A stretch of DNA of 64,000 nt from Magnetospirillum aberrantis SpK (lineage in GTDB: Bacteria > Pseudomonadota > Alphaproteobacteria > Rhodospirillales > Magnetospirillaceae): assembly GCF_011022235.1 (NCBI RefSeq), contig NZ_JAAIYP010000039.1:124001-188000 (forward strand). Direction: 5' to 3'. A model generated the notes under the pieces. That model worked only from the letters and a program-made list of their open reading frames with translations, made no database searches and was not told the origin of the DNA. Numbering within the stretch: the stretch's first letter is position 1; every line of letters starts with the position of its first letter. Positions 22,767 to 48,905 of this stretch are shown here, piece after piece. Both the position numbers and the translations under genes were made by a program.

Positions 22767-22875
22767 GGCGGGAACTCCGGTCAGGACCGTGGCCGGGGGC
22801 ACAACCAAATCTTAAAGAACCTGCCCTAGCCTTTGGCGCAGCATGGCCCATCTTCCTTAACAGCGGGTTACGCCC

Positions 22876-24642: not shown

Positions 24643-25388
24643 ACGGGGACCGCCTGGCCGGTAAGGCCGCCCTGGTCACCGGCGCCTCGCGCGGCATCGG
24701 CGCCGCCATCGCCCGCGCCTTCGCCGCGCAAGGCGCGCGTGTCACCGTCGGCTACCACAGCAACGCCCAGGCCGCCGCCCAGGTGGTGGCCGAGATCGGC
24801 GGCGACGCCTTCGCCGTGGCGCTGGACGTCGCCGACCGCGCCTCGGTCGAGACGGCGTTGGACGCGGTCGTCGCCCGCTTCGGCCGGCTGGATGTGCTGG
24901 TCAACAACGCCGGTATCCTGAAGCAGACGCCGTTCCTCGAAATCGACGAGGCCGAGTGGGACAGCATGCTGGCGGTCAACCTCAAGGGCGTGTTCCTGTG
25001 CACCCAGGGCGCCGCCCGACGCTTCGGTCCCGAAGGCGGCGCCGTCGTCAACCTGAGTTCCATGGGCGGCCAGATGGGCGGCCCCAAGGCACCGCATTAC
25101 GCGGCGGCCAAGGCGGCGGTGATCTCGTTCACCCGCTCCACGGCGCGATTGCTGGCGCCCAACGTGCGGGTCAACGCCATCGCACCGGGCTTCATCCGCA
25201 CCGAGATGTACGAGCACATCATGGCCCAGGGCCACACCACCGAGGACGCGGTGGTCGCCGGCGTGCCGCTGGCCCGCGTGGGCGAACCGGCCGACGTGGC
25301 CGAGGCAGCGGTATTCCTGGCTTCCGACGCCGCGTCCTATGTCACCGGACAGGTGATCAACGTCAACGGCGGCGTGTTGATGGTGTAA
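24630..25388 (+). CDS. Short-chain dehydrogenase/reductase (FabG-like)
   Basis: 252 residues, NAD(P)-dependent. TGASRGIG cofactor loop near residue 18, NNAG near 92, and the Ser-Tyr-Lys triad in LSSMGGQMGGPKAPHYAAAKAAV; the C-terminus YVTGQVINVNGGVLMV is classic. ATG 24630 lies inside the end of the DXS-like gene; GTG 24639 is an alternative start. Placement directly after the DXS-like enzyme suggests it reduces the keto product, which is inference; FabG itself is usually with fatty-acid genes. Confidence 0.87.
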   Translation: MGKVNGDRLAGKAALVTGASRGIGAAIARAFAAQGARVTVGYHSNAQAAAQVVAEIGGDAFAVALDVADRASVETALDAVVARFGRLDVLVNNAGILKQTPFLEIDEAEWDSMLAVNLKGVFLCTQGAARRFGPEGGAVVNLSSMGGQMGGPKAPHYAAAKAAVISFTRSTARLLAPNVRVNAIAPGFIRTEMYEHIMAQGHTTEDAVVAGVPLARVGEPADVAEAAVFLASDAASYVTGQVINVNGGVLMV

Positions 25389-25392
25389 ACCC

Positions 25393-26355
25393 TCAACCGC
25401 CGTCGAGGGCGGCCGACATTGCGGCAAGCAGGCCGTCCCGACCGCAGGCGGCGGCGATGTCGGCGACGTTGTCCGCCACCTGGGCCGACGTCCGCATGCC
25501 GGGAATGACCGTGGCGATGGTCGGCTCGGCCAGTACGAAGGCCAAGGCGGCCGCGCTGAGCGACACCCCGAACCCGGCCACCGCCGCCGCGACCCGGTCG
25601 CGCCGCGCGAGATCGTCCTGGAATTGGGCGCCACCGGCGTTCCATGTGGAACGCACGTCGCCTTCGTCGAAACGGCGATCCATGGTGACGCTGGACGACA
25701 GCAGCCCCCGCCCCAACGGAGAGGCGCCGATGACGCCGACGCCGTGATGGGCGCAAGCCTGGGAAAAGGCACCGCGATAGCGGTTGAAGAACAGGTTGTA
25801 GTAAACCTCGACCACCTCGATCCGGGGATCGGACAGCCGGGGCAACACGTCGTCGAAGCGATGGGCGACCGAAACGCCACCATGGGCGATCAGCCCCGCC
25901 GCCTTCATCTCGGTCAGGGTGTCCAGGGCCTCATCCCAGGCGACATCGCCTTCGGGCAGGACATGCAACAGGAAGACCTCCACCCGTTCGCGCCCCAGCC
26001 GCTTCAGCGAACGCCGCACCGACGCCAGCAAATGCGGACGCGACACGTCGGTCATGACACCGACCGCGTTGTCGGGCACGTTCCCCGCCTTGGTCACGAT
26101 CAGCGCCCGCGGGTCCTTGGCCACGCGCTGCGCCAGCAACCGTTCGGCCCGGCCCAGACCGTAGAAGTCGGCGGTGTCGAACAAGGTCACGCCGCTGTCC
26201 AGGGCTGTCTCAAGCGCGGCCTCGGCCACGCCGGGAGCGCTTTCGCCATAGCCGAACGGCCGCCCCGCCAGGGTCAGCGCCCCGGCCAGCGGCCATGTTC
26301 CCATGCCCAACGCCGACACCCTGAGCCCGGTGCGTCCCAGCAGACGGGTTTCCAT
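25393..26355 (-). CDS. Aldo/keto reductase
   Basis: 320 residues from ATG 26355, preceded by AGGG at suitable spacing; GTG 26367 is an alternative. NAD(P)H-dependent carbonyl reductase of the TIM-barrel AKR class. Seen: ETRLLGRTGLRVSALGMGTW, FDTADFYGLG with the catalytic Asp and Tyr, IVTKAG with the Lys, and VFLLHVLP for the His position. The C-terminal GASPLGRGLL and LAEPTIATVIPGM are typical. It is last in the operon that starts with the radical SAM gene at 29064 and converges on the SDR gene with four bases between them. Confidence 0.87.
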   Translation of the reverse strand: METRLLGRTGLRVSALGMGTWPLAGALTLAGRPFGYGESAPGVAEAALETALDSGVTLFDTADFYGLGRAERLLAQRVAKDPRALIVTKAGNVPDNAVGVMTDVSRPHLLASVRRSLKRLGRERVEVFLLHVLPEGDVAWDEALDTLTEMKAAGLIAHGGVSVAHRFDDVLPRLSDPRIEVVEVYYNLFFNRYRGAFSQACAHHGVGVIGASPLGRGLLSSSVTMDRRFDEGDVRSTWNAGGAQFQDDLARRDRVAAAVAGFGVSLSAAALAFVLAEPTIATVIPGMRTSAQVADNVADIAAACGRDGLLAAMSAALDGG

Positions 26356-26373
26356 GAAGCCCTGCACCCCTGA

Positions 26374-27429
26374 TCAAATGAAGTTGATGTGGTCCGGCGG
26401 CGAACGCAGCCCCCACAGGAACTGGTTGATGCTGTTTTGTCGGCAGATCGGTTCGCAGGTGTCGAAATCCAGGTGTGCCTCGATCCGGCGCTGCACCTCG
26501 CGGCGGCGCGGGCCGTTCCAGATTTCCTCGAAGCTTTGCTCGTGGATGTTGCCGTAACAGAAATCGGGGTTTCCCCAATGGCCGTTACAGGTGTAGATGC
26601 CGCCGTCTTCGCCAATCATGGTGATGAACGGCAGTCCCAGGCACTTCTTGTAGGTGCGCTTCAGCATCTGGTTGAACTGGTCCATGCGCACTTCCACATG
26701 GAACCCGTCGCCGGACAGGGCTTCCGCCTCGGCGATCTGGTCGCGGAAACGCTCGTGCATGTCCAGCGGAACGCGGAAGGTGTTGCGTTCGTTCTGGCTG
26801 GCCGGCTTGACCACCATGTAGTCGATGCCGGAATCCTTCAGCCGCCGTGCCAGAAGCGCCACCTCGTGACCGTTCTCGGGCATGACGCAAAAGACCGCGC
26901 CCAAGGTGACGTCCAGACCGCGCCGGGCCTTGATGCCGCCGGCCCAGGACAACACCTGGACCAGCTTGTCCCAATCCGCTTCCCGGCCCGATTGCAGCTT
27001 GGCGTAGGTCGGTGCCGAACCACCCAGGATCGAGAACCGCATCCACGTCAAATAGGGCAGGATGCCGTTGAGCTTGTCTTCGTCCAGCAGCACGCCATTG
27101 GTGGACACCGCCATGTCGGTGCCGTTTTCCCGGCCGATGCGGATGGCGTCCACCGTCGCCTCGTTCAGGAACGGTTCGCCGGTACCGGCGATGAAGGCGC
27201 TCTTGACGCCGCATCTGCCGATGTCCGCCGCCAGACGCAGGAACGCCTCGCGCTCCAGCTTGGGACCGCGATGGCCCAGGTATTCGACATAGCAATGGGC
27301 GCAACGATGGTTGCACTTGCCGATCGGACTGATATCCAGGTGAATCGGGAAGAAATCTTCGCCCCGCTTCCACTTCACCAATTCGTCCACATGGTGCAAC
27401 AGCTTGTGGCCGTTCAGTTGCAACGCCAT
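26374..27429 (-). CDS. Radical SAM/SPASM-type enzyme, island family copy A
   Basis: 351 residues. The iron-sulfur/SAM motif is KCNHRCAHC with C39, C43 and C46. C-terminal auxiliary-cluster cysteines: KKCLGLPF, YTCNGHW, CYGNIH, CEPICRQ. It shares with three other genes here (27997, 34460, 35539) an N-terminal L(D/N)G(T/H)K(L) stretch, W..GE..P, CNH.C..C, and a C-terminal PP(D/A)H(V/I)NFI ending. SPASM and twitch proteins oxidise or epimerise peptides and sugars; the substrate here is unknown. ATG 27429 has AAGGA seven bases upstream. It starts two bases after the TIGR04076-like gene stop. Confidence 0.85.
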   Translation of the reverse strand: MALQLNGHKLLHHVDELVKWKRGEDFFPIHLDISPIGKCNHRCAHCYVEYLGHRGPKLEREAFLRLAADIGRCGVKSAFIAGTGEPFLNEATVDAIRIGRENGTDMAVSTNGVLLDEDKLNGILPYLTWMRFSILGGSAPTYAKLQSGREADWDKLVQVLSWAGGIKARRGLDVTLGAVFCVMPENGHEVALLARRLKDSGIDYMVVKPASQNERNTFRVPLDMHERFRDQIAEAEALSGDGFHVEVRMDQFNQMLKRTYKKCLGLPFITMIGEDGGIYTCNGHWGNPDFCYGNIHEQSFEEIWNGPRRREVQRRIEAHLDFDTCEPICRQNSINQFLWGLRSPPDHINFI

Positions 27430-27431
27430 GG

Positions 27432-27983
27432 TCAGTCCTTTTCCGCGGAAATCTTGAACGTGACGTTATTGTTGTTGTCGGGGCACACCCCGTAGAAGGC
27501 GTCCAGTTTTCCCTGGAACGGCGTCTGGCCCACCTTCAGATACATTTGCAGGAACGGATAGATTTGATTGAACGCGGCCGGACAAAAGCCCAGGCCGTCG
27601 CCCTGATTGGCCTCGGCGGTGTCGCCTTCGGTGTGCGGACAGTCGCAGGCGGTGGCGCCGGGAAGGTCCACCGCGTCGTTCTTTTCGCCGACACGCACGA
27701 ACACCCGCACCTTGCCGTCGGCATCCCGCTCGCGGAAGACCTCAAGCACACGCGGGGACTTGAGGGCCGGGCATTGGGCGAAAACGTGGTCCGAATCGTC
27801 CTTCATCCAGTCGAAGCGGACTTCGTGCAGCATCCCCAGGATATAGGGATAGGCCGTGAAATAGGCATGGGGGCACAAACCCGCGGGGGTGATGTCCTCG
27901 AGCCGGTAGCGTTCACCCTGGTTGCGGTGATACTTGCAGCCGCCCGAGACGTGGGTGACGACGATTCCACTGTCTTTTTCCAC
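27432..27983 (-). CDS. Internally duplicated TIGR04076-like protein
   Basis: 183 residues; TIGR04076 proteins are usually ~90. Two half-copies are visible. The first is GLCPHAYFTAYPYILGMLHEVRF followed by a Cys and LEVFRE; the second is GFCPAAFNQIYPFLQMYLKVGQ followed by GVCPDNNNNVTFKIS. Cysteines near the N-terminus (SGGCKYHRN) and in ACDCPH accompany them. Function of the family is unknown. GTG 27983 is the start, with GGGAGG eight bases upstream. It sits between two radical SAM genes of the same family, with gaps of 2 and 13 bases, so it is probably an accessory or substrate-binding partner of these enzymes (inference). Confidence 0.72.
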   Translation of the reverse strand: MEKDSGIVVTHVSGGCKYHRNQGERYRLEDITPAGLCPHAYFTAYPYILGMLHEVRFDWMKDDSDHVFAQCPALKSPRVLEVFRERDADGKVRVFVRVGEKNDAVDLPGATACDCPHTEGDTAEANQGDGLGFCPAAFNQIYPFLQMYLKVGQTPFQGKLDAFYGVCPDNNNNVTFKISAEKD

Positions 27984-27996
27984 GCTACAGCCTCCC

Positions 27997-29064
27997 TTAG
28001 ATGAAATTGACGTGGGCGGGGGGATGACGCAGTTCCCAGGCCACTTTGTTGATGTTGTGATGGCGGCAATGCTTCATGCATTTCTCAACGTCCAACGACG
28101 TCTCGACCCGTTCGGTGACGGCGGCGCGCCGTGCGCTGCGCCAGATCGTCTCGAAGCTGTCGGTATGCAGGTTGCCGTAACAGAACGCCGGTTCGCCATA
28201 AAAACCGCAACAGGTGTAGACCCCGCCATCGGCCAGCACATAGGCCAGGAACGGCAGCCCAAGGCAGCGGCGGTAATCGCGGTGACCGTCATCCTCGAAA
28301 TTCTGGCGGCGGATGATGACCGCGAAACCCGGCCGGGCCAGCGCCTCGGCGGCGCGGAACGCATCCTCGCAACACCGATGCAGGTCGGACGGTGCCGAGA
28401 ACGTGTTGAGCCCCTGTTCGGCGAACCGCTTGACCACGAAATAATCGGCGCCAGCATCGCGGACCCGTTCGGCCAGTTCGACGACTTCATGGCTGTTTTC
28501 CGGCAACAATATCTGTTGCACCCCGATGGTCACCGGCAAGCCCAATTCCCGCTTCACCGCCGAGGCGGCGGCGATGTTGGCGAACACGCGGTCGAAATCG
28601 GCGGCCTTGGTCCGATGGATTCGGGAATAGGTGTCGGCCATGCCAGCGGCGACGCTGATCCTCACCCATTCCAGATGGGGCAGGATGCGTCGCGCGGTCT
28701 TTTCGTCCAACAGCACGGCGTTGGTGTTGAGCGCCATGCTGAGGCCGGCGCGAGCGCCGACCTCGACGGCGGCAGGCAGATCACGGTTGAGCAGCGGTTC
28801 GCCGTCGCCGGCGAACAGCACGCTGCGCACCCCCAGGCGCGCGGATTCTTCCAGAAGCTGGTTGAGCACCGGCCCCGGCAGAACGCCGCTGCGATTATCC
28901 TTGTAGTCGACGATACAGAACGTGCAACGGTGGTTGCAGGCCCCTGCGGGGGCGATATCGAGATGCAACGGAAAGATGCGCTCGCCGCGCTGCCAAGCCG
29001 CCACCCGATCAGGATGAAACAACAGCTTCGTTCCATCCAGGAACAGATTGGGCGATCCGCTCAT
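27997..29064 (-). CDS. Radical SAM/SPASM-type enzyme, island family copy B
   Basis: 355 residues. Cluster motif ACNHRCTFC (C43, C47, C50). The LFLDGTKLLFH opening, PLHLDIAPAG, SVLFAGDGEPLLN, GVQQILLPENSHEV, the CCGFYGEPAFCYGNLH auxiliary region, CMKHCRHHNINK and the final PPAHVNFI match copies A, C and D. AAGGAG lies seven bases before ATG 29064. First gene of the minus-strand operon that continues with the TIGR04076-like gene, copy A and the aldo/keto reductase. It diverges from the B12-type radical SAM gene; the ~165-bp gap holds a perfect 6-bp inverted repeat (29186-29191 and 29197-29202). Confidence 0.85.
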   Translation of the reverse strand: MSGSPNLFLDGTKLLFHPDRVAAWQRGERIFPLHLDIAPAGACNHRCTFCIVDYKDNRSGVLPGPVLNQLLEESARLGVRSVLFAGDGEPLLNRDLPAAVEVGARAGLSMALNTNAVLLDEKTARRILPHLEWVRISVAAGMADTYSRIHRTKAADFDRVFANIAAASAVKRELGLPVTIGVQQILLPENSHEVVELAERVRDAGADYFVVKRFAEQGLNTFSAPSDLHRCCEDAFRAAEALARPGFAVIIRRQNFEDDGHRDYRRCLGLPFLAYVLADGGVYTCCGFYGEPAFCYGNLHTDSFETIWRSARRAAVTERVETSLDVEKCMKHCRHHNINKVAWELRHPPAHVNFI

Positions 29065-29230
29065 GGCGGGCTCCTTGGGTGCTTCTGCACATCGGTTCGT
29101 ACGGGGATTTCCCGCACGCGTCGGACTTTACCAGACCCGAATCTGTTACCAGAATCCTCTTTCAATTTTCTTAATACACGAACAGGCATCCTACCCGGAT
29201 GCAAGCGCCGCATCTCAGAAGGAGAGCGAC

Positions 29231-30964
29231 ATGGCCAAGGTGGTTCTGATCTATCCGGGCATCGGCAACGGGCTCGGCTTCAACAACGATTCCGGTGAAC
29301 GTTCGCAAACCTGGCCGCACCCCGGACTGGCACTGATCAGTGCCTTGCTGAAACAGCACGGACACCGGGTCGAGTTGATCGACCTGCGCAAGCTGTCGGG
29401 TTGGGAAATGTTCGAAGCCCAATGCGCCGAACGCAATGGCGACGGTGAAAAGGTGGTGTTCGGCATCACCGTGCTGACCGTCAATTTCGGCATCGCCCGG
29501 GAATGCGCCAGCCGCCTGAAAAAGGTCGTCCCCAACGCCTGGCTGGTGGCCGGTGGTCCCCACCCCACCCTGATGACCCAGCAGATGCAGGAAACCGGCC
29601 TGTTCGACACCCTGGTCCAGGCCGAGGGCGAGGTGGTGATGCTGGAAATCGCCGACGCCATCGAGCGTGGCGAGTGCCCACCGGCCGGAATCGTCAAGGG
29701 CAAACCGGTCGCCAACCTGGACGACCTGCCGTTTTTCGACCGCGACCTGTTCGACGTGGTGGAGGAACCCGTCCTCAACATTCTGCCACGCCCGTTCCTG
29801 ACCCTGGTGTCGGGCCGCGGCTGCCTTTACCACTGCACCTTCTGCCAACCGGCGGAACGGCTGATGTTCGGCGGCGTGCGCAACCGCTCGGTCGAAAGCG
29901 TGATCGCGGAAATCAAGCTGTTGCAACGCAGCCACGGCCTGAAAAGCACCATGTTCCAAGACGATTGCCTGACCCAGGACCGCGACTGGGTGCTGAAATT
30001 CTGCGACGCGCTGGAAACAGAGGGGATTTCCCTGGAATGGTGCTGTCAGGCGCGGGCAGACATCATCTGCGCCAACGAGGACATGGTCGCGCGCATGCAC
30101 CAATGCGGTCTGCGTGCCCTGTCCATCGGTTTCGAAAGCGGTTCCGACCGCATCCTCAAATTCCTAGGAAAACAGACCACGGCGGAACTGAACCTGCGGG
30201 CGGCGGAAATCTGTCACCGCCACGGTATCCGCATGATCGGCAACTTCATGATGGGCATCCCCACCGAGACCGAAGCGGAAGTCTGGCAGACGGTGGACCT
30301 GATCAAGAAGGTCCGCCCTTATGTCTATCTGATCTCGTTCTTCGCGCCGACACCGGGCTCGGGCCTTTACACCTATTGTGAGCGAAACGGCCTGATGCGT
30401 GACGACACGGATTTCGACAATTACAGCCGTTCGCCCAGCGGCGAGAAGATCAAGGGCGTCGATTACGCCCTGTTGCGCCGCGCCTACCGCGAGGCGTTGC
30501 GGGTCGGCGAAAAGCTGTCCATCGAGGAAATGCGCCGCCGCCTCAAGGAAGAGATGGAGTTGCGCCCCCGCCGGGTACTGGTGATGCGTTCGGTGCGCTC
30601 GGACCAGTTCAACGAATTGCTGGACGACCTGGCACAATGTTTCGACGGATTGGTGATCGACGCCATCGTCCAACGCGGGGTTCTCGACGAGGTGAACCAC
30701 GACCGCATCAATGGCGAGATCCACCCAGTCGATCAGCAATTCCTAAATGCCGACCGCATTCCCGAGGAACTGTACGCCCACCTGCGGACGATCGATTACG
30801 ATGCGGTCGTCATTCCATGCCTTGCCACCTACCAGCACGGCTATGAACAACCGCATCGCATCGCCGAGCGCATCTTGAACGGCACCGCGGGGCGCCGCGT
30901 CTTCATTAACGAGAACCGCGAACCGCACCCCGAATTCCATCACGCCATCGAAGGTGCCGCATGA
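29231..30964 (+). CDS. B12-binding-type radical SAM enzyme with extra C-terminal domain
   Basis: 577 residues from ATG 29231 (AGGAG site upstream). Residues ~1-150 resemble a cobalamin-binding domain (VVLIYPGIGN, LALISALLKQHGHRVELIDL, VAGGPHPTLM), ~190-420 are the radical SAM core with GRGCLYHCTFC (C198, C202, C205), and GIRMIGNFMMGIPTET is typical of the B12 class. Residues ~440-577 form an extra Rossmann-like region that I do not recognise. Family members are often methyltransferases or perform ring and chain rearrangements. Its stop overlaps the next radical SAM start as ATGA. Confidence 0.83.
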   Translation: MAKVVLIYPGIGNGLGFNNDSGERSQTWPHPGLALISALLKQHGHRVELIDLRKLSGWEMFEAQCAERNGDGEKVVFGITVLTVNFGIARECASRLKKVVPNAWLVAGGPHPTLMTQQMQETGLFDTLVQAEGEVVMLEIADAIERGECPPAGIVKGKPVANLDDLPFFDRDLFDVVEEPVLNILPRPFLTLVSGRGCLYHCTFCQPAERLMFGGVRNRSVESVIAEIKLLQRSHGLKSTMFQDDCLTQDRDWVLKFCDALETEGISLEWCCQARADIICANEDMVARMHQCGLRALSIGFESGSDRILKFLGKQTTAELNLRAAEICHRHGIRMIGNFMMGIPTETEAEVWQTVDLIKKVRPYVYLISFFAPTPGSGLYTYCERNGLMRDDTDFDNYSRSPSGEKIKGVDYALLRRAYREALRVGEKLSIEEMRRRLKEEMELRPRRVLVMRSVRSDQFNELLDDLAQCFDGLVIDAIVQRGVLDEVNHDRINGEIHPVDQQFLNADRIPEELYAHLRTIDYDAVVIPCLATYQHGYEQPHRIAERILNGTAGRRVFINENREPHPEFHHAIEGAA

Positions 30965-31941
30965 GCACGGATTTTTCCGATTCCTTGCCGCAACGCCTTC
31001 AGTTCATGCTGATGGAGGTGACCACGGCCTGCAACCTGCGCTGCCCGGGCTGCCGCCGCACCAACCGCCGCGAGGACGGCGAATGGAGCAGCCGCTTCAT
31101 GGACCTCGCCACCGCCCGGAAAGTGCTCGACAACTTCCCGCCCATAAGCCACCTGATCGTCTCGGGCTTCGGCGAAGTGGCGTTCAATCCCGACCTGCCG
31201 GACATCCTGGCCTATGCCCGCGATTGCGGAAAGTTCCGCATCATCCAGATCAACACCAACGGCTTGGCCCGCGACGCGGATTATTACCGCATGCTGATCG
31301 AACACGGGTTGAACTATCTGATGGTGTCGGTCGACACGCTGGACCAGGACATCGCCGACCAGGTGCGGACCGGCACCGACGTCAATCGGCTGCGGCGGTT
31401 GCTGCACGATCTGGCAACGTTCCGCATTCCGGTCATCGTGTCCATCACCGTCAGCAAGGAGAACCTGGAGGGGTTGCCGTCACTGCTGCGCGAGATCAAC
31501 GACATCGGCAAGTTCACCGTGGGCGTGCGCGAAATCGGCGACATGGGCCAGCCCGAACGCCTGTTGGACTCCGACGGGGAAATCCGTCTGGCCCGTCTGT
31601 TGATGGAAAGCCTGCCGCTGCCCAATCTGCGCATCGCCCCGCCCAAATGCCTGCAAGCCAAGGATGCCCGTTGCGTCGATCCCTGGCTGCGGCCGGGGGT
31701 GACGGTCGACGGTTACCTGACCCCGTGCTGTTGGACCAACGACGCCGACCTGTTCCAGCGCCTGTCCATGGTCGACATGACCTGGGAGGAAGCCTGGCAC
31801 AAGCCCGAGCACCTGGAGTGGCTCCGGGCCTTTCGCGAGGCGCCGCCGGAAAACCCGTGCAAGGGCTGCACCCGCGATCCCCGCCAGTTCGGCGGCCTGT
31901 GGCAAGGCAGCGCGTTCGAGTTGTACCGTACCTTGGACTGA
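30961..31941 (+). CDS. Radical SAM protein with SPASM-like C-terminus
   Basis: 326 residues. Motif ACNLRCPGC (C24, C28, C31); ISHLIVSGFGEVAFNPDL matches the GGE-type SAM-binding strand; C-terminal cysteines lie in PKCLQAKDARCVDPW, TPCCW and PCKGC, an SPASM-like set. It lacks the NFI ending of copies A-D and belongs to a different subgroup. It is coupled by ATGA to the B12-type enzyme and followed 11 bases later by a glycosyltransferase, so these three form one plus-strand unit. Substrate unknown. Confidence 0.83.
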   Translation: MSTDFSDSLPQRLQFMLMEVTTACNLRCPGCRRTNRREDGEWSSRFMDLATARKVLDNFPPISHLIVSGFGEVAFNPDLPDILAYARDCGKFRIIQINTNGLARDADYYRMLIEHGLNYLMVSVDTLDQDIADQVRTGTDVNRLRRLLHDLATFRIPVIVSITVSKENLEGLPSLLREINDIGKFTVGVREIGDMGQPERLLDSDGEIRLARLLMESLPLPNLRIAPPKCLQAKDARCVDPWLRPGVTVDGYLTPCCWTNDADLFQRLSMVDMTWEEAWHKPEHLEWLRAFREAPPENPCKGCTRDPRQFGGLWQGSAFELYRTLD

Positions 31942-31952
31942 GGACCGTCATC

Positions 31953-33617
31953 ATGACCGACCCGTGCCTGACCGGCGACGATCTGGCCCTTTATCAGGCC
32001 ATGGCCGCGCAGATGGCGGCGGAAACCGCCGACCGGCCGGCCGCCCACGCCCCCGTGCTCGAATACTTCCACACCGAGATGGCGGCGCCGCGCGACCAGG
32101 ATCTGGCGCTCGCCCACCTTGCCCGACTGCCGTTGCAAGGCCGGGTATGGATCTATGGCGGCGGCAGCTTCACCCGTGCCATCCTTCCGCACTTGCGCGC
32201 CCGCACGGACATCCAGCTCGAAGGCATCGTCGACCGCAACAGCCAGTGGGTGGTGACCGACAGCGGTCTGCCGGTGATCGCCCCGACGCAATTGGCCACG
32301 CGCGAGTTCGACCACGTCCTGGTCGCCCATGTCAGCCGGGAACCGGACATGGTCGAAGCGCTGACGAAAAATGGCATCCCCGCGACCAAGATCGTCCGCC
32401 TGTTCGGCAATCCCGATTTTGCCGCCGCCGCGCTGGCCACCCGAAGCGCCGAAACATGTTCCCAGGCGGCGGCGCTGGCCCCCGACTACCTGATTCTCGA
32501 CACCACCGGCATGTCCTGGCAATTGATCCCGGATGCCGATCTGGCGCGGCTGTTGCCGCCCGAACGCACGCTCAAGCTGTTCCTCGGACGCCAGGAACAT
32601 TACGCCGACCACGGAATCTATCCGACGCTGGACCTCAAGCAATCGGCCAGTCTGGCGGCCGAAGTGATGCGTACGTTGCGGCCCAAGGCGGTTTACCTGC
32701 GCACCACCTGCCAGCTCAACGGCGACGGTTATCCCGTACTCATCCGCGAGGCGGCGCCAAACGCGGCGCTGATCCACGAAATCTACGACGTCGCCATGAC
32801 CTTTCCCGGCCCCTATCTGGCCGAAGGCTGGGGATATTCCGACCTGACCGAGCGGCTGGCACGGGCGGGTACCGCCTGTTCCTTCCGCGAGGCGAGCTAC
32901 GTCCTCTACAAGAGCGGCGGTAGCCCGTGGGAGCCGTTCCGCCGGCTGATCGAGGTCCCCAACGGCCTTTATTACCCCTTGCGAGAGGACATCCGCAGCG
33001 GCAACCCGGCGCCGGCGCCTGAAGGGAACGAGCCGTTCAGCATCCTTTACGCCGGGTCGATCCACACCCGCAGCAAGTTCACGGCCGACAGCGCCTTCAA
33101 ATGGGCCGACGTGGTGCCGTTCTTCCGCCGGTTGGCGGCCGAGGACCACGCGCGGGTGGAGATGTTCAACGGCCTGCATCGCGGCACCGGCGGCGACGCC
33201 GACTACGCCGAATATCTGGAGGAGTTCGCAAACGGGCCGATCCGCTATCATCGGGCGATCCCGCTGGCCGAATTGGTGGGACGCATGTCGGCCCACCATT
33301 ACGGCTGGGTGGCGTTCCACCGCCCGGACCCCACCGCCATCCCGCTGATCGACAAGATCACCACCCACAACAAGCTGACCAGCTATCTTCTGGGCGGCCT
33401 GCCGGTGATCGTCACCGACTACTTCACCCATGTCGCCGAACTGGTCCGCGACTTCGACGCGGGGTTGGTGGTGACCAGCGACGAGATCGCGAGCATCGGC
33501 CCCCGCCTGAACGCCGCCGACTATCGCCGCCATGTGGCCGGCGCGGAACGCCTGCGCGAGCACATGATCACCGCGAACCGGAATCTGTTCGCGGACTTGG
33601 CCAAGGCTTTGCCGTGA
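31953..33617 (+). CDS. Glycosyltransferase with N-terminal Rossmann-like module
   Basis: 554 residues. Residues ~60-150 look like a nucleotide-binding sensor module (RVWIYGGGSFTRAILPHL, then LEGIVDRN). The C-terminal ~350 residues have a GT-B outline ending in NKLTSYLLGGLPVIVTDYFTHVAELVRDFDAGLVV, the donor-site region of GT4-like enzymes, and FSILYAGSIHTRS earlier. The acceptor is unknown. Last gene of the B12/radical SAM unit; it converges on the methyltransferase gene with 18 bases between stops. Confidence 0.72.
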   Translation: MTDPCLTGDDLALYQAMAAQMAAETADRPAAHAPVLEYFHTEMAAPRDQDLALAHLARLPLQGRVWIYGGGSFTRAILPHLRARTDIQLEGIVDRNSQWVVTDSGLPVIAPTQLATREFDHVLVAHVSREPDMVEALTKNGIPATKIVRLFGNPDFAAAALATRSAETCSQAAALAPDYLILDTTGMSWQLIPDADLARLLPPERTLKLFLGRQEHYADHGIYPTLDLKQSASLAAEVMRTLRPKAVYLRTTCQLNGDGYPVLIREAAPNAALIHEIYDVAMTFPGPYLAEGWGYSDLTERLARAGTACSFREASYVLYKSGGSPWEPFRRLIEVPNGLYYPLREDIRSGNPAPAPEGNEPFSILYAGSIHTRSKFTADSAFKWADVVPFFRRLAAEDHARVEMFNGLHRGTGGDADYAEYLEEFANGPIRYHRAIPLAELVGRMSAHHYGWVAFHRPDPTAIPLIDKITTHNKLTSYLLGGLPVIVTDYFTHVAELVRDFDAGLVVTSDEIASIGPRLNAADYRRHVAGAERLREHMITANRNLFADLAKALP

Positions 33618-33635
33618 CCGTCGCCAAACGAGGGA

Positions 33636-34460
33636 TCAGACCCGGCGGGCCACCATCATCAGGCGGTTGCCCTGGCGGAAACGCCGGGCCGCCCACCACA
33701 TGGCCCGCTGTGCGAGCGTCGGGCCACCGTGTTCGTGCACCCCGACGACGCCCAGAACCCCGGTATACCAGGCTTCCACGCGAAAGCCGCCCTGTTCCAG
33801 CAGGCGGGCAAGGCATGGCGGGGAAAACTGCCAGATATGATGCGGCAATCCCCAACCATGGCCGGGCGGCAGGCGGAACCCCACCAGATTGGGCACCTGG
33901 ACAAAAAACAAACCGTCCGCCGCCAGCATGTCACGACACCGGCGCACCACGTCGAGCGGCTGTTCCAGGTGTTCGAGCACGTCGCACATCACCAGACAAT
34001 CGTAAGGCGCGTCGGGCGTGAATTCCTCGATGGGGGCCTCGGACACGTCGAGACCGAACACCTCGCGGGCATAGCGGGCCGGTTCGGGGGAAATCTCGAT
34101 CCCATGGCGGGTTTCCACCCACCCTTGCAGGGACTTCAGAAAGAACCCATAGCCGCAGCCCACATCCAGCACCCGCCGCATGTCGGGCCGGAAAGCCGAC
34201 AGACGTTGCCAGCGTTCCAGGAAGAAGCCGTCGAAGATCGACTGGTGCTTGGCGTAAAGATCAGGAAAGGACCAATACTGGATGGCGTCGCGGTTGACCT
34301 TGGTTCCGGCGGCGTCCTGATAGAATGCCTCGGCCTCGGCCGCCGATCCTTTCAGGTAGACCAGACCACAGGAACCGCATCGCATCAGGGGAAAGCCCGA
34401 ACGCTGGCCATAGGATCGGGCCGGCGCCTGGGGGCCGCAGATTGGACAGGTCCGTTCCAT
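33636..34460 (-). CDS. Class I SAM methyltransferase with N-terminal zinc ribbon
   Basis: 274 residues from ATG 34460. CPICG and CGSCG near residues 4-35 form a zinc ribbon; VLDVGCGYGFFLKSL near residue 95 is the SAM motif I; DCLVMCDVLEHLEQPLDVV and FFVQVPNLVGFRLP are the post-motifs of the type 11/12 group. These are common in O-antigen and flagellin-glycan loci as sugar methyltransferases. The start overlaps the stop of the radical SAM gene upstream by one base (TGATG). Confidence 0.82.
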   Translation of the reverse strand: MERTCPICGPQAPARSYGQRSGFPLMRCGSCGLVYLKGSAAEAEAFYQDAAGTKVNRDAIQYWSFPDLYAKHQSIFDGFFLERWQRLSAFRPDMRRVLDVGCGYGFFLKSLQGWVETRHGIEISPEPARYAREVFGLDVSEAPIEEFTPDAPYDCLVMCDVLEHLEQPLDVVRRCRDMLAADGLFFVQVPNLVGFRLPPGHGWGLPHHIWQFSPPCLARLLEQGGFRVEAWYTGVLGVVGVHEHGGPTLAQRAMWWAARRFRQGNRLMMVARRV

Positions 34461-35527
34461 CAGATGAAATTCACATGGTCCGGGGGGTTCTTCAACGACC
34501 AGCACATGCGGTTGACCTGATGGTGCCGGCAATAGGGCATGCAGGTGGACACGTCCTGTTCGGTCTCGACCCACTTGCGCACCCGCGCTGCCTTTTCCGA
34601 AGACCAGATGTCGGCATAACTGTCCTGATTGAGGTCACCCAGCTCGTAACGGTCGTCCCCGAAGAACGGACAGCAGGTGTAGACCTTGCCGTTGCCGGCG
34701 ATCTGGGAAATGAACGGCAGCCCCAGGCAATGCTTGTAATGGCGTTCACCATTTTCGGCGAAGGTATGCCAGCGGATGATCGAGGTGAAGGTGTCGGTGG
34801 ACAGCGTCGCCGCCTCCTCCATCTCGGCGCGATAGCGGTTCATCAGATTGACGGCGGTGTCACCCGCGTAACCGGAATTCTTTTCGTCGTGATGGAACTG
34901 CTTCAAGACGTAGTAGTCGCAGCCGATGTCGCGGGCCAGACGGGCCAGGGACGGCACACCGTGGCCGTTTCCCGGCAGCAACACCTGTTGGATGCCGATG
35001 GTGACCTTGAGCCCCTGTTCCCGCTTGATGCGGGCCGCCGTGGCGATGTTGTCGATGGCGCGCTGGAAGTCCTCGGGCTTGGTCCGGTGAATGTCCGCGT
35101 ACAGGCCGGGTTCGTGCGCCATCACCGAGAACCGCGCCCAGGTCAGGTGGGGCAACGCCTCACGCGCTTTTTCCTCGGTCAGCAACACGGCGTTGGAATT
35201 CAGCGCCATGTCCACGCCCGATTCGGCGCCGACACGAATCGCCTCGGTACAATGCTTGTGCACCAGCGGTTCGCCGTCCCCGGCGAACAGACAGCTCTTG
35301 ACCCCCATGCGCCCCATGTCGCGCATGAGCTGAAGCAGGACATCGCGTTTGATTGTCCCCAGCTTGTGGTCGTTGTGGTCGGCATAACAGAAGGTGCAGC
35401 GGTGGTTGCAGGCACCGGTCGGCGACACCTCCACATGAAGCGGAGCGATCAATTCGCCTTTCAGCCAGCGCTGGACGCTCTCCAGGTGGTGGTGCAACTT
35501 GGTACCGTCGAGATAAAGATTGCTCAT
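34460..35527 (-). CDS. Radical SAM/SPASM-type enzyme, island family copy C
   Basis: 355 residues. LYLDGTKLHHHLESVQRW at the N-terminus, ACNHRCTFC (C40, C44, C47), SCLFAGDGEPLVHK, GIQQVLLPGNGH, HCLGLPF, YTCCPFFG, CMPYCRHHQVNRMCW, ending NPPDHVNFI. Closest in the window to copies B and D; the 3' ends of C and D are also similar at DNA level, which points to tandem duplication. Part of the minus-strand operon from 38751 to 33636. Confidence 0.85.
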   Translation of the reverse strand: MSNLYLDGTKLHHHLESVQRWLKGELIAPLHVEVSPTGACNHRCTFCYADHNDHKLGTIKRDVLLQLMRDMGRMGVKSCLFAGDGEPLVHKHCTEAIRVGAESGVDMALNSNAVLLTEEKAREALPHLTWARFSVMAHEPGLYADIHRTKPEDFQRAIDNIATAARIKREQGLKVTIGIQQVLLPGNGHGVPSLARLARDIGCDYYVLKQFHHDEKNSGYAGDTAVNLMNRYRAEMEEAATLSTDTFTSIIRWHTFAENGERHYKHCLGLPFISQIAGNGKVYTCCPFFGDDRYELGDLNQDSYADIWSSEKAARVRKWVETEQDVSTCMPYCRHHQVNRMCWSLKNPPDHVNFI

Positions 35528-35538
35528 CGCTGGCACCT

Positions 35539-36597
35539 TCAGATGAAGTTCACGTGGTCGGGCGGGTTCTTCAGCGACCACAAGAAGCGGTTGACCTGAT
35601 CCAGCCGGCAATGGGGCATGCACACGTCGTCAAGGTTTTCGATGCCTTGAACGTGGCATTCGACCTTGGCCCGCCCTTCCTTGGACCACATCGTCTTGAA
35701 GTCGCCGTCATGGATGTTGCCGTAACAGAACGGCTTCTCGTTCAGGTGCGGCCCACAGGCGTAGACCTCGCCATCCGGCATCAGCTCGGCGAAGAACGGC
35801 AGCGCCAGACAGCTTTTGTAGGGCCGCACCCAATCTTGTTCACGCAGGCCGACACGCACCGTCACGTGAAAGCGTTCCGTCGCCAGGGCCCGCACCTGCT
35901 CGAACGCCTCGGGCGGCGGCAACGGCTTGCCGACCCGGTAATCGTTGAACGGATGCTCGTTGTATTGCTTCACCGACAGGTAGTCGACCCCCAGGTCGCG
36001 CAAGCGCGCGGCCATGGCGATCACGTCCTCCACCGGCTGGCCAAGATAGACGAACTGGACACCCAAGGTCGTCTCCAGACCCGGATTGGCACGCTTGAAG
36101 GCGACGACCGCTTCCAGGTTGGACAGCACCGAACGGTAATGTTCCGGGGGAACGCGGTGGACCCGCGCATAATCCTGGGCGTCGGTCCCGTTCACCGAAC
36201 AGCGGATGAACGACATGTGGGGAACCACCCGTTCGATCACCTTGGCGGTCAGCGGCGAACCGTTGGTGTTGAGCGCCTGGTCGTAGCCCAGGGCAGCGGC
36301 GGCCTCGATCAGGTCGGGCAACCCCTTGTGCAGCAACGGCTCGCCCTCGCCGGAATAAAAGAGCGCCTTGGTCCCCAGCCCCTTCATCTCTTCCAACAGC
36401 GCCTTGGTCCGCGCCACGTCCAGGAACACCGCCTGACGCTCGATGTAGTCGTAGGCGCAAAACAGGCAGGCGTGGTTGCACGCCTTGGTCGGATTGATCT
36501 CCAGCAAGATGGGATAGACGGTCTCGCCCCGCATCCAGGCGGCCACCGCCTCCATGTGGTGATGCAGCTTGGTTCCATCCAGTTGCAGCGTCGTCAT
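35539..36597 (-). CDS. Radical SAM/SPASM-type enzyme, island family copy D
   Basis: 352 residues. LQLDGTKLHHHMEAVAAW, ACNHACLFC (C40, C44, C47), ALFYSGEGEPLLHK, GVQFVYLGQPVEDV, SCLALPF, YACGPHLNEKPFCYGNIH, CMPHCRLDQVNRFLW, and the final NPPDHVNFI shared with copy C. Start ATG 36597 overlaps the stop of the GT9-like gene by four bases. Eleven bases separate it from copy C. Confidence 0.85.
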   Translation of the reverse strand: MTTLQLDGTKLHHHMEAVAAWMRGETVYPILLEINPTKACNHACLFCAYDYIERQAVFLDVARTKALLEEMKGLGTKALFYSGEGEPLLHKGLPDLIEAAAALGYDQALNTNGSPLTAKVIERVVPHMSFIRCSVNGTDAQDYARVHRVPPEHYRSVLSNLEAVVAFKRANPGLETTLGVQFVYLGQPVEDVIAMAARLRDLGVDYLSVKQYNEHPFNDYRVGKPLPPPEAFEQVRALATERFHVTVRVGLREQDWVRPYKSCLALPFFAELMPDGEVYACGPHLNEKPFCYGNIHDGDFKTMWSKEGRAKVECHVQGIENLDDVCMPHCRLDQVNRFLWSLKNPPDHVNFI

Positions 36598-37589
36598 CGC
36601 ACGGCTCCCACCTCAAGCGGACGCCCCGCCGCGACCGGCAACGACGCCAACACGTCCAACACCGCCTGTTGCACCCGCCGAGGCGAAACATAGGCCATGC
36701 AGGTGTGTTCATGCGTGCATGTGTCGGACAGGCAGGGAACGCAATCCCAGTCTACTTCGGGCAACAACTTCACCATGTGAGGCATCTGATCCACTTCCGT
36801 CGCGACGGTCGGACCGAACATGGCGACCACGCCACGTCCCAACGCCATCGCCAAATGAAGACCCAGGGAATCGTTGGTGACGATAACCCTGCACGACGAA
36901 ATCCAGTCGATGTATCCGTTCAGGTCGTTGGCCGATTGCTGCCAACAGACCGAGGCATGTTCGGACAGCCCTTCCGCCAATTGCTCCCAATGCCCCTTGG
37001 GCCACGCTTTCAGCGGAAACTTGCTGCCGACCAGATGGTTCAGCCCGACATCCCACCGCGGCGTCCGCGGCGGCGCCTGGACCACATAAGGAGCGCCGTC
37101 ATAGTCGCGCCCAAGGATGCGATACAGCAATTCCGACCACGACCGCCCCTGGTGCCTTTTGAAGCTGGGGTCGTGGATCATGGCCTGGACCTCGGGGGCG
37201 TCGCTGGACATGACCACCGAACCGCCGCCGGACAGGCCATAGCCATAACGGATTTCCGCCGGCACGGCGTCGAGTGCCCGGCACATGCGCGGGTCCTTCT
37301 CCAGGTTGACGACGACCTCGTACTCGCGATAGGGCAGCCGCAGCTCGGTCAGGTTCAGGGAATTCACCACCACCAGATGGCTGATGAATGGATTGTTGGC
37401 CAACAACGGCGCGCCCGCGCCGGAAACCACCCAGGTGGTGGCGTATTCGGCGGCGGGAAACAGGTTGAGCAGCACCGTGCTGCGCAGGATGTCCCCCAGG
37501 CTGATGACCTCGCCGTTTTCCGGGTCCAAGGTCTCGCCGTGGCCGGTCTTGACGATCAGAACGCGCTTGCGGGGCCATGGGCTGGTCAT
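36594..37589 (-). CDS. GT9 (heptosyltransferase-like) glycosyltransferase
   Basis: 331 residues from ATG 37589 (GGAG eight bases upstream); a start six codons earlier is possible. KRVLIVKTGHGETL, SLGDILRSTVLLNLFPAA (acceptor side), WDVGLNHLVGSKFPLKAW, SCRVIVTNDSLGLHLAMALGRGVVAMFGPT (donor side) are the GT9 pattern. Near the C-terminus CVPC, CTHEHTC add four cysteines. It probably adds a heptose-like or modified sugar to a surface glycan. It lies between radical SAM genes and shares their operon. Confidence 0.83.
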   Translation of the reverse strand: MTSPWPRKRVLIVKTGHGETLDPENGEVISLGDILRSTVLLNLFPAAEYATTWVVSGAGAPLLANNPFISHLVVVNSLNLTELRLPYREYEVVVNLEKDPRMCRALDAVPAEIRYGYGLSGGGSVVMSSDAPEVQAMIHDPSFKRHQGRSWSELLYRILGRDYDGAPYVVQAPPRTPRWDVGLNHLVGSKFPLKAWPKGHWEQLAEGLSEHASVCWQQSANDLNGYIDWISSCRVIVTNDSLGLHLAMALGRGVVAMFGPTVATEVDQMPHMVKLLPEVDWDCVPCLSDTCTHEHTCMAYVSPRRVQQAVLDVLASLPVAAGRPLEVGAVR

Positions 37590-37608
37590 AACGTTTCTCC
37601 CGACCACG

Positions 37609-38751
37609 TCACGACGCCTGTCGCTGGTCGAAATACCACCGGTTCCGCTCGGCGGCCGGCAACAGGTTCCGCACTTCGCCGGGCATGCGCAGGTTGCGGA
37701 TCTCGACCGAAGTGTGCGGCGTCTGTTCGTCGTCCAGGCTTTGGAAGCGGTTGTTCTTCACCTTGGTGTCGCAGCCGATGCAACGGCCATAATGCGTGCA
37801 GGCGCGGAACTTGCGGATCTCGTCCAAGGTGAAGTCGGGATCCAGCATGTGTCCCACCGGACGGAACGGAACCCCGGCCAGCACCTCGTCGGCATGCCGC
37901 GTCAGTTCGAACCCGCATTCGCCAAGACGGGCGAGCGCGTCCTGCAAGCCACCGTCGATCATGCTCTGATACAAAAAGGCGTGGCATTGCCACACGAATC
38001 CCTGGGGGTCGATCAAAAGCTCGCTGGTCCGGCACTCGCATTCCAGCGTGCGGTCGTGATACCCCCCCGCCAACAGGTTGGTGGAGAAGGGATAGAGGTA
38101 GGTCCCGTACAGGCGCCCCTCGTGCATCCCCAGGAATTCCTTGGTCTCGACCGGAACCTTGCCGGCGGCCAGGGCCAGCATCTCGTCGTGCAGGTGGTTT
38201 CCCGGCACGTCGACCATGTAGATTCCGACATCGCTCAATCGCTTGTCGGGATGGACCCTGAACCCGTATTCCCCCAGGCCGACACAACGCTCCACCAATT
38301 CCGCGAAAGCCCGCGTGCCCCACACGCGATGCATTTCGGCGGGGTGCCAACTGACCCGGATGGACGGATAGGGGGCGTCACGACGCAACTTGTCCTGACA
38401 ACCGGCCACAGCGGCGGCGAACGCCGCCGGCTTGAGCGCCATGTTGGTCAGCAGATCGAAACGGTTCGGCACCCCGCCCAACAGAATGCCCAGGCCTTTG
38501 CCCTTGCCGAACAGAGTCGGCTCTCCCCCTTGCAGGGTGATCGGCAGGTCGTCGCGGGCGGGAATACGGCCGAGCGCCAGGACCCATTGTTCGGGCGACA
38601 GCGTGGCCCCTTGTCCGGCGAAGGAACTGCGCCGCTTACCCGCCTGGTCGGGATCGTTGATGCAATAGGAGCAGTCCAGATTGCATTCGAGCGTCAGGAA
38701 CGCCCCGACGTAATTAAGGTGCTGGGGGATGTCCAGCATCGGCAAAGCCAT
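37609..38751 (-). CDS. Radical SAM protein, distinct subgroup
   Basis: 380 residues from ATG 38751 (AAGG upstream; TTG 38772 is less likely). Motif ECNLDCSYC with C23, C27 and C30; LPITLQGGEPTLFGKGKG is the GGEPT strand; C-terminal cysteines in ECECRTSELLIDPQGFVWQCH and CTHYGRCIGCDTK may hold a second cluster. First gene of the operon running to 33636. The 219-bp gap upstream (38752-38970) has no gene; it holds a lower-GC stretch at 38876-38935 that may contain the promoter, and an imperfect GGCGCGAA/TTCGCC hairpin. Confidence 0.82.
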   Translation of the reverse strand: MALPMLDIPQHLNYVGAFLTLECNLDCSYCINDPDQAGKRRSSFAGQGATLSPEQWVLALGRIPARDDLPITLQGGEPTLFGKGKGLGILLGGVPNRFDLLTNMALKPAAFAAAVAGCQDKLRRDAPYPSIRVSWHPAEMHRVWGTRAFAELVERCVGLGEYGFRVHPDKRLSDVGIYMVDVPGNHLHDEMLALAAGKVPVETKEFLGMHEGRLYGTYLYPFSTNLLAGGYHDRTLECECRTSELLIDPQGFVWQCHAFLYQSMIDGGLQDALARLGECGFELTRHADEVLAGVPFRPVGHMLDPDFTLDEIRKFRACTHYGRCIGCDTKVKNNRFQSLDDEQTPHTSVEIRNLRMPGEVRNLLPAAERNRWYFDQRQAS

Positions 38752-38970: not shown

Positions 38971-40173
38971 TCAATCGTAACAGCGTTCGACCTCGACGGG
39001 GCGGCTGGAATGCCTGTGAACAGTGGCGGCGATCTCGTCGGTGAAACGCTGCGACGAAATCAACACCGCGTCGATCCCAAGACGGTCGATGTCCTGGGGA
39101 CCATGAACCGGCAAGCCCAGGAAAGTGGTGCCTTGTTTTGCCGGATCGCCGTCAAGGACCAGGGTGGCGTTGGCGCGAATATCGTACAAGGCGTCAAGGT
39201 GCACCGTATGCAGGCCCGCGCCATAGATCGCCACCTTGCGACCTTCGGCCCGCCACCGCGCGAAAGCGGCGCCGACCCGGCGCTCCAACCCCTCCAGCAG
39301 CCGGGCCTCGTCCTCGGCATAGCGCGCGACGGCCCCCCGCAAGGCGTCCCGGTCGTCGGCCGGCGGCATGATCTCGGCCCCCTCAAAGGACGCAGGGTCG
39401 CGTCCCGCCACGCAGCGCAGATAAATGCCCCGCGTCGGCGCCGGGTCGAACACCACATGGGCGAAGCCCAGTCGGGTCAGGAACCGCCACAGGCTGTGCG
39501 GCGTGAAATGCGACACATGCTCGAACGAGAAGAAACCGGTCAGCGACAACTCCGGGAACAAGGTGTTGGGTACTTCGATGAACAGCAAGCCATCGGGCCG
39601 CAACAAGGACACCATGGCCGCCAGTTCGTCGGCCGGAGCCCACAGATGTTCGACCACGCTGATCAGCGACAGGACGTCCACGCTTCCGGCCTCGGCCGGC
39701 AACAAATCCTCGGCAAACCCCTGAACCACGTCCAGGCCGTTTTCCCGAGCCGAGGCGGAGGCCTTGGCCGACGGTTCGATGCCCCGCTTGCGCCAACCGG
39801 ACGGCAGATCCAGCGCCGAAAGAAAACCGCCGCCGCCACATCCAACGTCCAGCACCAGGCCAGAGGATCGACGGGCCAGGAATGGAACCAGGAACGCCGC
39901 GCGCTCGGCGAACAGGCGGCTGTAATACGATCCCGGCCGATTGTCGCGGAACACCTGACCCGACGCCAGGTTGGTATCCGAGTAATAGCGCCGGTATTCC
40001 TCGATCCCCAGGCGCGGCGAGTTGAAGGCGAAGCCGCAATCGGCGCATTGCACCACCACCACATCGACATCGCCGACCGCCGTCCCGGTCCGCCGCCGCG
40101 TCCGATACAAGGGTTCGTTGCGCGTACCGCCGCACACCGCGCAAGGAACCGCCTGTGCCGCGGCGGGAATCAT
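38971..40173 (-). CDS. Zinc-ribbon SAM methyltransferase with C-terminal Rossmann-like domain
   Basis: 400 residues. CAVCG and CADCGFAFN near residues 11-50 form a zinc ribbon; VLDVGCGGGGFLSAL near 108 is SAM motif I; LSLISVVEHLWAPADEL and LFIEVPNTL follow. Residues ~300-400 (KVAIYGAGLHTVHLDAL, TLVLDGDPAKQG) form a nucleotide-binding-like module as in sugar C-methyltransferases. It overlaps the end of maf by four bases, so it is coupled to the flagellin glycosyltransferase and probably modifies the same glycan. Confidence 0.82.
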   Translation of the reverse strand: MIPAAAQAVPCAVCGGTRNEPLYRTRRRTGTAVGDVDVVVVQCADCGFAFNSPRLGIEEYRRYYSDTNLASGQVFRDNRPGSYYSRLFAERAAFLVPFLARRSSGLVLDVGCGGGGFLSALDLPSGWRKRGIEPSAKASASARENGLDVVQGFAEDLLPAEAGSVDVLSLISVVEHLWAPADELAAMVSLLRPDGLLFIEVPNTLFPELSLTGFFSFEHVSHFTPHSLWRFLTRLGFAHVVFDPAPTRGIYLRCVAGRDPASFEGAEIMPPADDRDALRGAVARYAEDEARLLEGLERRVGAAFARWRAEGRKVAIYGAGLHTVHLDALYDIRANATLVLDGDPAKQGTTFLGLPVHGPQDIDRLGIDAVLISSQRFTDEIAATVHRHSSRPVEVERCYD

Positions 40174-47642: not shown

Positions 47643-47644
47643 GC

Positions 47645-48895: not shown

Positions 48896-48905
48896 CCGCC
48901 CCTCC

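Follow-up and report, generated by a model that had tools for sequence, protein, structure and literature searches.

We analysed a 64-kb stretch (the window; G000:C39:124001-188000, GC 65%) within the 4.15-Mb genome of Magnetospirillum aberrantis SpK, in which seven genes for radical S-adenosylmethionine (rSAM) enzymes, here called rSAM1-4, the B12-type enzyme, rSAM6 and rSAM7, lie crowded among sugar genes (Table 1). By scanning the genome with Pfam, PF04055 matches were found at 34 places (32 of them above the cut-off), seven of which cluster at window 26.9-38.7 kb (C39:150932 to 162497), in genes spanning 26374-38751. The densest 13.4-kb stretch outside the island held two rSAM matches, and the Poisson base rate was 0.11 rSAM per 13.4 kb, for an interval picked after the fact. 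Six of the seven window proteins passed the PF04055 cut-off of 29.5 bits. The seventh, rSAM7, scored 22.7–23.7 bits and was accepted as an rSAM because it keeps CNLDCSYC and because C23, C27, C30 and five further cysteines were invariant when it was aligned with three homologs from other phyla (four rows). The proteins thus belong to the radical SAM superfamily by CxxxCxxC and a PF04055 core, rSAM7 by motif and conservation and not by Pfam score. An earlier note, made from the letters of this DNA alone, had named seven rSAM genes in this interval, i.e. a four-member family, a B12-type enzyme at 29231, a SPASM-like enzyme at 30961 and a further subgroup at 37609, and all of these assignments held: B12-binding and rSAM domains were both found in the first single enzyme, and a SPASM match above the cut-off in the second and likewise in all four paralogs. 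The rSAM cluster in a sugar-gene island is therefore a confirmed observation, and the island is wider than the interval first given, at about 12.2-50 kb.

Table 1. Features of the island (positions are those of the window; Pfam and NCBIfam scores in bits)
Feature	Position	Strand	Evidence
rSAM1, rSAM/SPASM, HxNFI-tail family (P-like)	26374..27429	-	PF04055 + PF13186 above cut-off; alignment A1
rSAM2, rSAM/SPASM, HxNFI-tail family (P-like)	27997..29064	-	Pfam rSAM + SPASM
rSAM3, rSAM/SPASM, HxNFI-tail family (P-like)	34460..35527	-	Pfam rSAM + SPASM
rSAM4, rSAM/SPASM, HxNFI-tail family (C-like)	35539..36597	-	Pfam rSAM + SPASM
B12-binding rSAM, 577 aa	29231..30964	+	PF02310 56 bits, PF04055 79 bits
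rSAM6, SPASM-type rSAM without HxNFI tail	30961..31941	+	Pfam
rSAM7, divergent rSAM with further cysteines	37609..38751	-	Below Pfam cut-off; CNLDCSYC
Aldo/keto reductase (AKR)	25393..26352	-	PF00248 149.5 bits
Double TIGR04076 protein, between rSAM1 and rSAM2	27432..27983	-	TIGR04076 75 bits, cut-off 33, two stretches
Putative glycosyltransferase (by eye)	31953..33617	+	0 Pfam families
MT1, class I SAM methyltransferase	33636..34463	-	PF13489 75 bits
GT9 (heptosyltransferase-family) glycosyltransferase	36594..37607	-	PF01075 43 bits
AAC(3)-like N-acyltransferase	12263..13060	+	NF033082 72 bits, cut-off 270
TPR + GT9 protein, possibly FlmG-like (architecture only)	13069..14820	-	TPR matches; PF01075 24.6 bits, cut-off 22
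Flagellin	14844..16016	+	PF00669 41 bits, above cut-off; NF009330 143 bits, below subfamily cut-off 614
ATP-grasp ligase with LAL_C2 domain	16648..18042	-	PF18603 47 bits
ATP-grasp ligase, 404 aa, SfmE-like by domain and size	18917..20131	-	PF18603 64 bits, PF02655 41 bits
Cytidylyltransferase fused to PseG-like hydrolase	20128..21903	-	PF02348 107 bits; TIGR03590 PseG 100 bits, below cut-off 153.6
NeuB/PseI-like synthase, 301 aa, SfmA-like by domain and size	21903..22808	-	PF03102 196 bits
DXS-like thiamine enzyme, 588 aa, genome's second DXS-type copy	22876..24642	+	TIGR00204 526 bits, cut-off 466
Short-chain dehydrogenase/reductase (SDR; FabG-type, SfmC-like by domain and size)	24636..25388	+	PF13561 239 bits
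MT2, methyltransferase, 400 aa, SfmD-like by domain and size	38971..40173	-	PF13489 68 bits
Maf flagellin glycosyltransferase	40170..42122	-	PF20157 156 bits, PF01973 92 bits
TPR + GT41-like glycosyltransferase	42139..44073	-	PF13844 71 bits
GH57-like protein	44249..46231	+	Pfam
FlaF	47208..47648	-	PF07309 98 bits
PseC-type aminotransferase	47645..49027	-	PF01041 353 bits
PseB-type dehydratase	48906..49967	-	PF02719 342 bits; 60% to G082 gene

The four paralogs, 35–41% identical to the first member, all carry an intact CxxxCxxC, C-terminal cysteines and a final PP(D/A)H(V/I)NFI (alignment A1), and N-terminal D-K-H residues and the C-terminal HxNFI tail are conserved within the family. In a wider alignment of 49 rows (A2), the most distant being 28% identical to the first, P32, C43, C47, C50, E89, G181, K212, Y264, G280, H351, N353 and F354 were invariant; A2 is a chosen set that took 45 of the 47 scan-locus candidates of at least 200 bits and left out a copy from each of loci L029 and L030, and its L029 row ends differently from the HxNFI tail. 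H-x-x-F-[IVL] ended 80 of the 83 rows of at least 130 bits, the exceptions being L029, L031 and one L024 copy, with five weaker or partial rows standing outside this count. The tail was also kept in 16 of 17 extra paralogs of scan loci and in 28 of 28 rows from order genomes, for which the profile itself includes the tail; since one locus scan used the tail pattern, the independently found rows weigh more for its conservation. The motif can serve as a simple marker for the family.

Comparison with NCBIfam was made for the best 25 models per protein, and among the models listed rSAM1-4 reached no curated cut-off. The DesII model TIGR04426 gave 58.8, 43.6 and 45.5 of 450 bits for rSAM2, rSAM3 and rSAM4 and was absent from the 25 models listed for rSAM1, the BlsE model TIGR04466 gave at most 42.7 of 400 bits, and the maturase models TIGR04317 (paralogs at most 72.8, rSAM6 74.9 of 380 bits) and TIGR04311 (at most 81.6 of 400 bits, for rSAM6) also stayed below their thresholds. 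Membership of the viperin, MoaA and tungsten-enzyme-maturase families was ruled out by the curated cut-offs. When profile A2 was compared with the PDB, DesII came top at 65 bits.

The B12-type enzyme combines a B12-binding domain and an rSAM core above the cut-off, which places it with the class B-type enzymes; its best NCBIfam model was HpnJ at 151 of 578 cut-off bits, and its best solved relative was a chain of apramycin oxidoreductase 4, i.e. AprD4, a B12 rSAM that does not methylate. rSAM6 had no match at E≤1e-25 in 398 genomes of the phylum other than in its own genome.

The island has a close counterpart in genome G082, from another family of the order, where 27 of the 30 island-region proteins had a match (E≤1e-5) within a 40-kb stretch of one contig; the three without one were the TPR-GT9 protein, FlaF and PseC. 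Six of the seven rSAMs have counterparts on this contig, assigned by tree for rSAM1, rSAM2 and rSAM4 (67.5%, 65% and 57% identity) and by best match and gene order for the B12-type enzyme, rSAM6 and rSAM7 (54%, 57% and 54.5%). The matches of the putative glycosyltransferase (42%) and the AKR (52%) lie between those of rSAM6 and rSAM7 and between those of the B12-type enzyme and rSAM1, respectively, and the AAC(3)-like acyltransferase is matched at 50%. In G879, from another family in the class, matches of rSAM4, rSAM3 and MT1 (53%, 61% and 57%) are consecutive and in window order.

These relationships come from a 23-row tree that combined 21 selected rows of the 83 with two from G879 and had one very long-branched outgroup row; in it, rSAM1 and rSAM2 each paired with a G082 gene (100/100), rSAM3 paired with G879 (99/98), and rSAM4 grouped with G082 and G879 members (80/78). 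rSAM1-3 joined what we call the partner clade (99/98), rSAM4 fell outside it, and the fourth family member of G082 was placed within it (95/94). In the 83-row tree, rSAM4 paired with G082 (100/90) and forks between groups stayed unresolved; the fourth G082 member, which paired there with rSAM3 (89/94, without G879), joined the partner clade once G879 was added, so that rSAM3 has no clear ortholog in G082 and conservation of all seven rSAMs in G082 was rejected for this gene. Since rSAM1, rSAM2 and rSAM4 pair with separate G082 genes and rSAM3 with G879, a recent, lineage-specific duplication of the four paralogs was also rejected.

Relatives of rSAM1-4 are widespread. Own genome included, profile A1 had matches in 54 of 199 sampled genomes of the order (E≤1e-20) and profile A2 in 47 of 398 sampled from the phylum (E≤1e-40); with single sequences, rSAM1 matched 2 of 385 class genomes at E≤1e-60 (its own and G879), and rSAM2 matched 4 of 72,556 plasmid records at E≤1e-15. 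A scan of named genomes yielded at least 45 loci, of which 34 with a family gene above 130 bits were retained and 11 weaker ones dropped, and with 17 stretches from order genomes (some genomes giving two) these made a set of 51 loci; L066, which has a family gene and an HldE-like-cluster gene, was lost at the selection of open reading frames (ORFs). GmhA- or HldE-like genes occurred in 27 of the 51 loci, thiamine enzymes (transketolase halves, E1 alpha/beta, or the G082 DXS) in 31, and two or more family members in 25, where the HldE, GmhA, transketolase and E1 cluster labels rest on one representative each and the remaining labels were given by eye. Counting the window, 53 loci carry a family gene, and in 16 of them two such genes on the same strand flank a thiamine pair. 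The composite gene order is HldE, GmhA, rSAM, SDR, transketolase or E1 pair, second rSAM, with variation among loci. The family accompanies heptose-like or thiamine genes in Campylobacterota, Nitrospirota, Omnitrophota, Thermodesulfobacteriota and Pseudomonadota, and thiamine genes only in Planctomycetota. A GT9-like gene directly before a family rSAM was also seen in L001 and L002 (one Planctomycetota and one Omnitrophota genome), and matches of rSAM7 and GT9 recur beside the family in L005 and L016, that of rSAM7 also in L031. In G109, a family gene shares a 20-kb stretch with GmhA-, HldE-, SDR- and transketolase-like genes, all lying no more than about 15 kb from flagellin and Maf. Cultured carriers include an Azospirillum oryzae plasmid and plasmid pDCAR1 of Solidesulfovibrio carbinolicus DSM 3852, which as annotated has, within 41 kb, rSAM, PseB, PseC, PseF, a NeuB-family synthase, ATP-grasp, FabG, transketolase, a glycoside hydrolase that matches the window GH57, a PfkB kinase and a SIS protein.

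Among the genes interleaved with the rSAMs, the GT9 glycosyltransferase, the methyltransferase and the AKR of the earlier note were recognised by Pfam, and its further glycosyltransferase, at 31953-33617, is so labelled by eye only. At E≤1e-15, G000 and G082 were the only two of 317 order genomes with the double TIGR04076 protein, and its family had no match in 14 control genomes. The flanks carry the flagellin and nonulosonic acid genes, five of which resemble in domains and sizes the sfmABCDE genes of Shewanella oneidensis. For a pseudaminic acid pathway, PseB/C/G/I/F-like genes are present, with the PseG and NeuB/PseI models under their cut-offs; no PseH-type gene was found among the island proteins scanned. 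The AAC(3)-like enzyme, far under the resistance cut-offs, probably acylates an amino sugar, and it may replace PseH. A stronger dxs lies outside the island (C37, 807 bits). A small ORF at 16205-16573 (- strand) is convergent with flagellin and weakly like an L075 gene that flaF matches, making it a possible second FlaF, and the gene at 46289-47125 (- strand) encodes a 278-aa protein adjoining flaF, with 0 Pfam matches; the 24% match of this protein in G082 is next to PseB. The GH57-like protein has relatives in the island of G082 (43%) and, on the S. carbinolicus plasmid, next to PseB/C (40%).

Taken together, we lean towards a reading in which a heptose-type sugar, tailored by the rSAM set, joins a substituted nonulosonic acid on flagellin. 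Glycan tailoring is supported by context, because flagellin, FlaF, Maf and nonulosonic acid genes share the island with the rSAMs and because relatives of rSAM1-4 accompany sugar-activation-like genes in several phyla; to this extent the flagellin-sugar proposal of the earlier note was supported, and the dehydrogenation, epimerisation or C-methylation that it suggested stays a proposal. In the proposed scheme, the PseB/C-type genes, NeuB, the cytidylyltransferase/PseG fusion, the thiamine enzyme, SDR, MT2 and the ATP-grasp ligases would make a substituted nonulosonic acid of the Sfm kind, and the seven rSAMs, AKR, MT1, GT9 and the second putative glycosyltransferase would make the further sugar. 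Each of the four paralogs would use a 5'-deoxyadenosyl radical to take one hydrogen from the heptose-type sugar, nucleotide-linked or already transferred, which would thereby be oxidised, epimerised or deoxygenated, with an auxiliary cluster accepting or donating the electron. AKR might reduce the sugar, MT1 and possibly the B12 enzyme methylate it and GT9 transfer it, and Maf or the TPR-glycosyltransferase enzymes would attach the glycan to flagellin; substrate, step order, chemistry and final attachment are all inferred.

A more tentative reading is that of an apparently undescribed, widespread bacterial cassette for carbon-branched or chain-extended heptoses, made by radical oxidation and then two-carbon addition. 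Its conceivable parts would be heptose isomerase- and activase-like genes, a C-type rSAM, an SDR, a two-subunit thiamine carboligase and a P-type rSAM, both rSAMs ending in the near-invariant H-x-x-F tail, and the island, with one C-like and three P-like enzymes, could be an expanded, flagellin-dressing version of it. We rejected the island's own thiamine enzyme as proof of such a heptose cassette, because the Sfm-like set already explains it.

Several observations weigh against a heptose-type substrate. The island itself showed neither a GmhA nor an HldE gene; the genome has elsewhere an HldE-type gene (208 bits, above cut-off) and a GmhA-like gene (190 bits, below the cut-off of 209). Heptose-like genes are missing from 24 of the 51 loci and thiamine genes from 20, and these counts come from loci found partly through the tail pattern and have no matched control; DXS relatives at four gene places in the own genome, the island's included, give a rough base rate but not such a control. 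The cluster representatives fell under their curated cut-offs (HldE 170/521, GmhA 109/209, transketolase 205 and 197/488, E1 336/394 and 273/321 bits), so other sugars or substrates are possible. In the PDB comparison of A2, a chain titled Radical SAM, which we take to be SuiB (53 bits), BlsE (49.5), MoaA (49) and SkfB (49) followed DesII by only 12–16 bits, and sugar specificity is accordingly unproven by sequence, leaving the sugar role a lead. The top PDB relatives of rSAM6 (tetraether synthase, PqqE and SkfB) and of rSAM7 (the Radical SAM domain protein 5wgg, SkfB and PqqE) include no sugar enzyme.

The main rival holds that the rSAMs make not a separate sugar but the non-sugar substituent, acyl or acid, that the Sfm-type nonulosonic acid carries, and we regard it as unlikely though worth keeping in view. 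The nonulosonic acid of Shewanella bears a 236/250/264-Da moiety that is judged nitrogen-free and of unsolved structure (PMC3765264), of which the substituent would be the counterpart; Sfm-like and rSAM genes share one island in both G000 and G082, and the ATP-grasp ligases could couple an acid to an amino sugar. However, the five-gene sfm operon as described there has no rSAM (PMC3765264), and of the loci searched G082 and the S. carbinolicus plasmid alone gave homologs of the window ATP-grasp proteins, whereas many loci combine the rSAM family with heptose-like genes and lack such homologs.

That the sugar is instead destined for lipopolysaccharide (LPS) or another surface glycan, with the flagellin genes mere neighbours, appears improbable. 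Flagellin homologs occurred in only two of the loci retrieved (L056 and L071), the loci of other relatives have ABC exporter-, UDP-glucose dehydrogenase- or glucose-1-phosphate cytidylyltransferase-like genes (labelled by eye), and GT9 enzymes often act in the LPS core; but the family, flagellin and Maf share a locus in G000, G082 and G109, FlaF-like genes lie in the G030 and G064 loci, and Pfam gave no polymerase, flippase or ABC export match among the 30 island-region proteins. About as improbable is action on a peptide or protein, whether the enzymes mature a ribosomally synthesised and post-translationally modified peptide (RiPP) or alter flagellin side chains directly. In its favour, peptides are common substrates of SPASM enzymes, peptide maturases and PqqE are among the hits of rSAM7, PqqE and SkfB come behind a lipid enzyme for rSAM6, and the presumed SuiB and SkfB score near DesII for the four paralogs. 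Against it, a precursor in the island is unlikely because the gaps at 25.4-40.2 kb are at most 21 bp save two of 166 and 219 bp that hold only short, unconvincing ORFs of ≤58 aa (the rest of the genome was not searched for precursors), none of the seven proteins has a Pfam match to a PqqD-type recognition domain, no NCBIfam peptide-maturase model among those listed scored above its cut-off, and the recurrent neighbours of the family are sugar genes.

If sugar tailoring for flagellin is correct, the flagella may carry an unusual radical-made sugar, several rSAMs here lying among flagellin-glycan genes. rSAM enzymes acting on sugars are known mainly from antibiotic pathways, and the present family is spread over several phyla without reaching any listed NCBIfam cut-off. 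Since cultured carriers exist in the plasmids of S. carbinolicus and A. oryzae, its chemistry is testable.

Among known systems, HygY is reportedly a saccharide rSAM enzyme. DesII, BtrN and BlsE are sugar radical SAM enzymes as the consulted portion of PMC3715490 describes them, and they score among the highest of the solved structures related to the four paralogs, with which they share CxxxCxxC and C-terminal cysteines that could hold an auxiliary cluster; however, only the core domain aligns, and the HxNFI tail and N-terminal D-K-H are conserved within the present family. NeoN and AviX12 are saccharide epimerases working as single rSAM steps, according to the available parts of PMC10991966 and PMC8326336; these and HygY differ in belonging to antibiotic pathways, and were set beside the window enzymes by description only. 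In Caulobacter, FlmG and Maf flagellin glycosyltransferases put nonulosonic acid on flagellin, and the window likewise has Maf and TPR-glycosyltransferase proteins, whereas no rSAM is mentioned in the accessible text of that report (PMC7591256). Among the papers listed, none was on rSAM enzymes in flagellin, heptose or surface-glycan loci by title or abstract opening, in a search that had most subscription journals outside it. In gene content the island also resembles sfmABCDE. This Shewanella operon, with Maf as its neighbour, codes for a short NeuB, a thiamine enzyme, an SDR, a methyltransferase and an ATP-grasp enzyme, and the modification of flagellin by a 274-Da nonulosonic acid with a further 236–264 Da requires it (PMC3765264). 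The same five domain types are present near Maf in the window, compared by domains and sizes alone: 290, 581, 255 (oxoacyl-ACP reductase-type SDR), 395 and 412 aa in Shewanella (PMC3765264) and 301, 588, 250, 400 and 404 aa here, respectively. The Shewanella Maf gene lies upstream of the operon (PMC3765264). The two sets differ in that the Shewanella thiamine enzyme is annotated ilvB (PMC3765264) and that of the window is DXS-like, the five window genes are spread over the island and do not form one operon, and a PseF/PseG-like fusion and seven rSAMs are found in the window besides. The rSAM half of the island is not a known kind, whereas the Sfm-like half is, being tied to flagellin modification and unconnected to rSAM chemistry.

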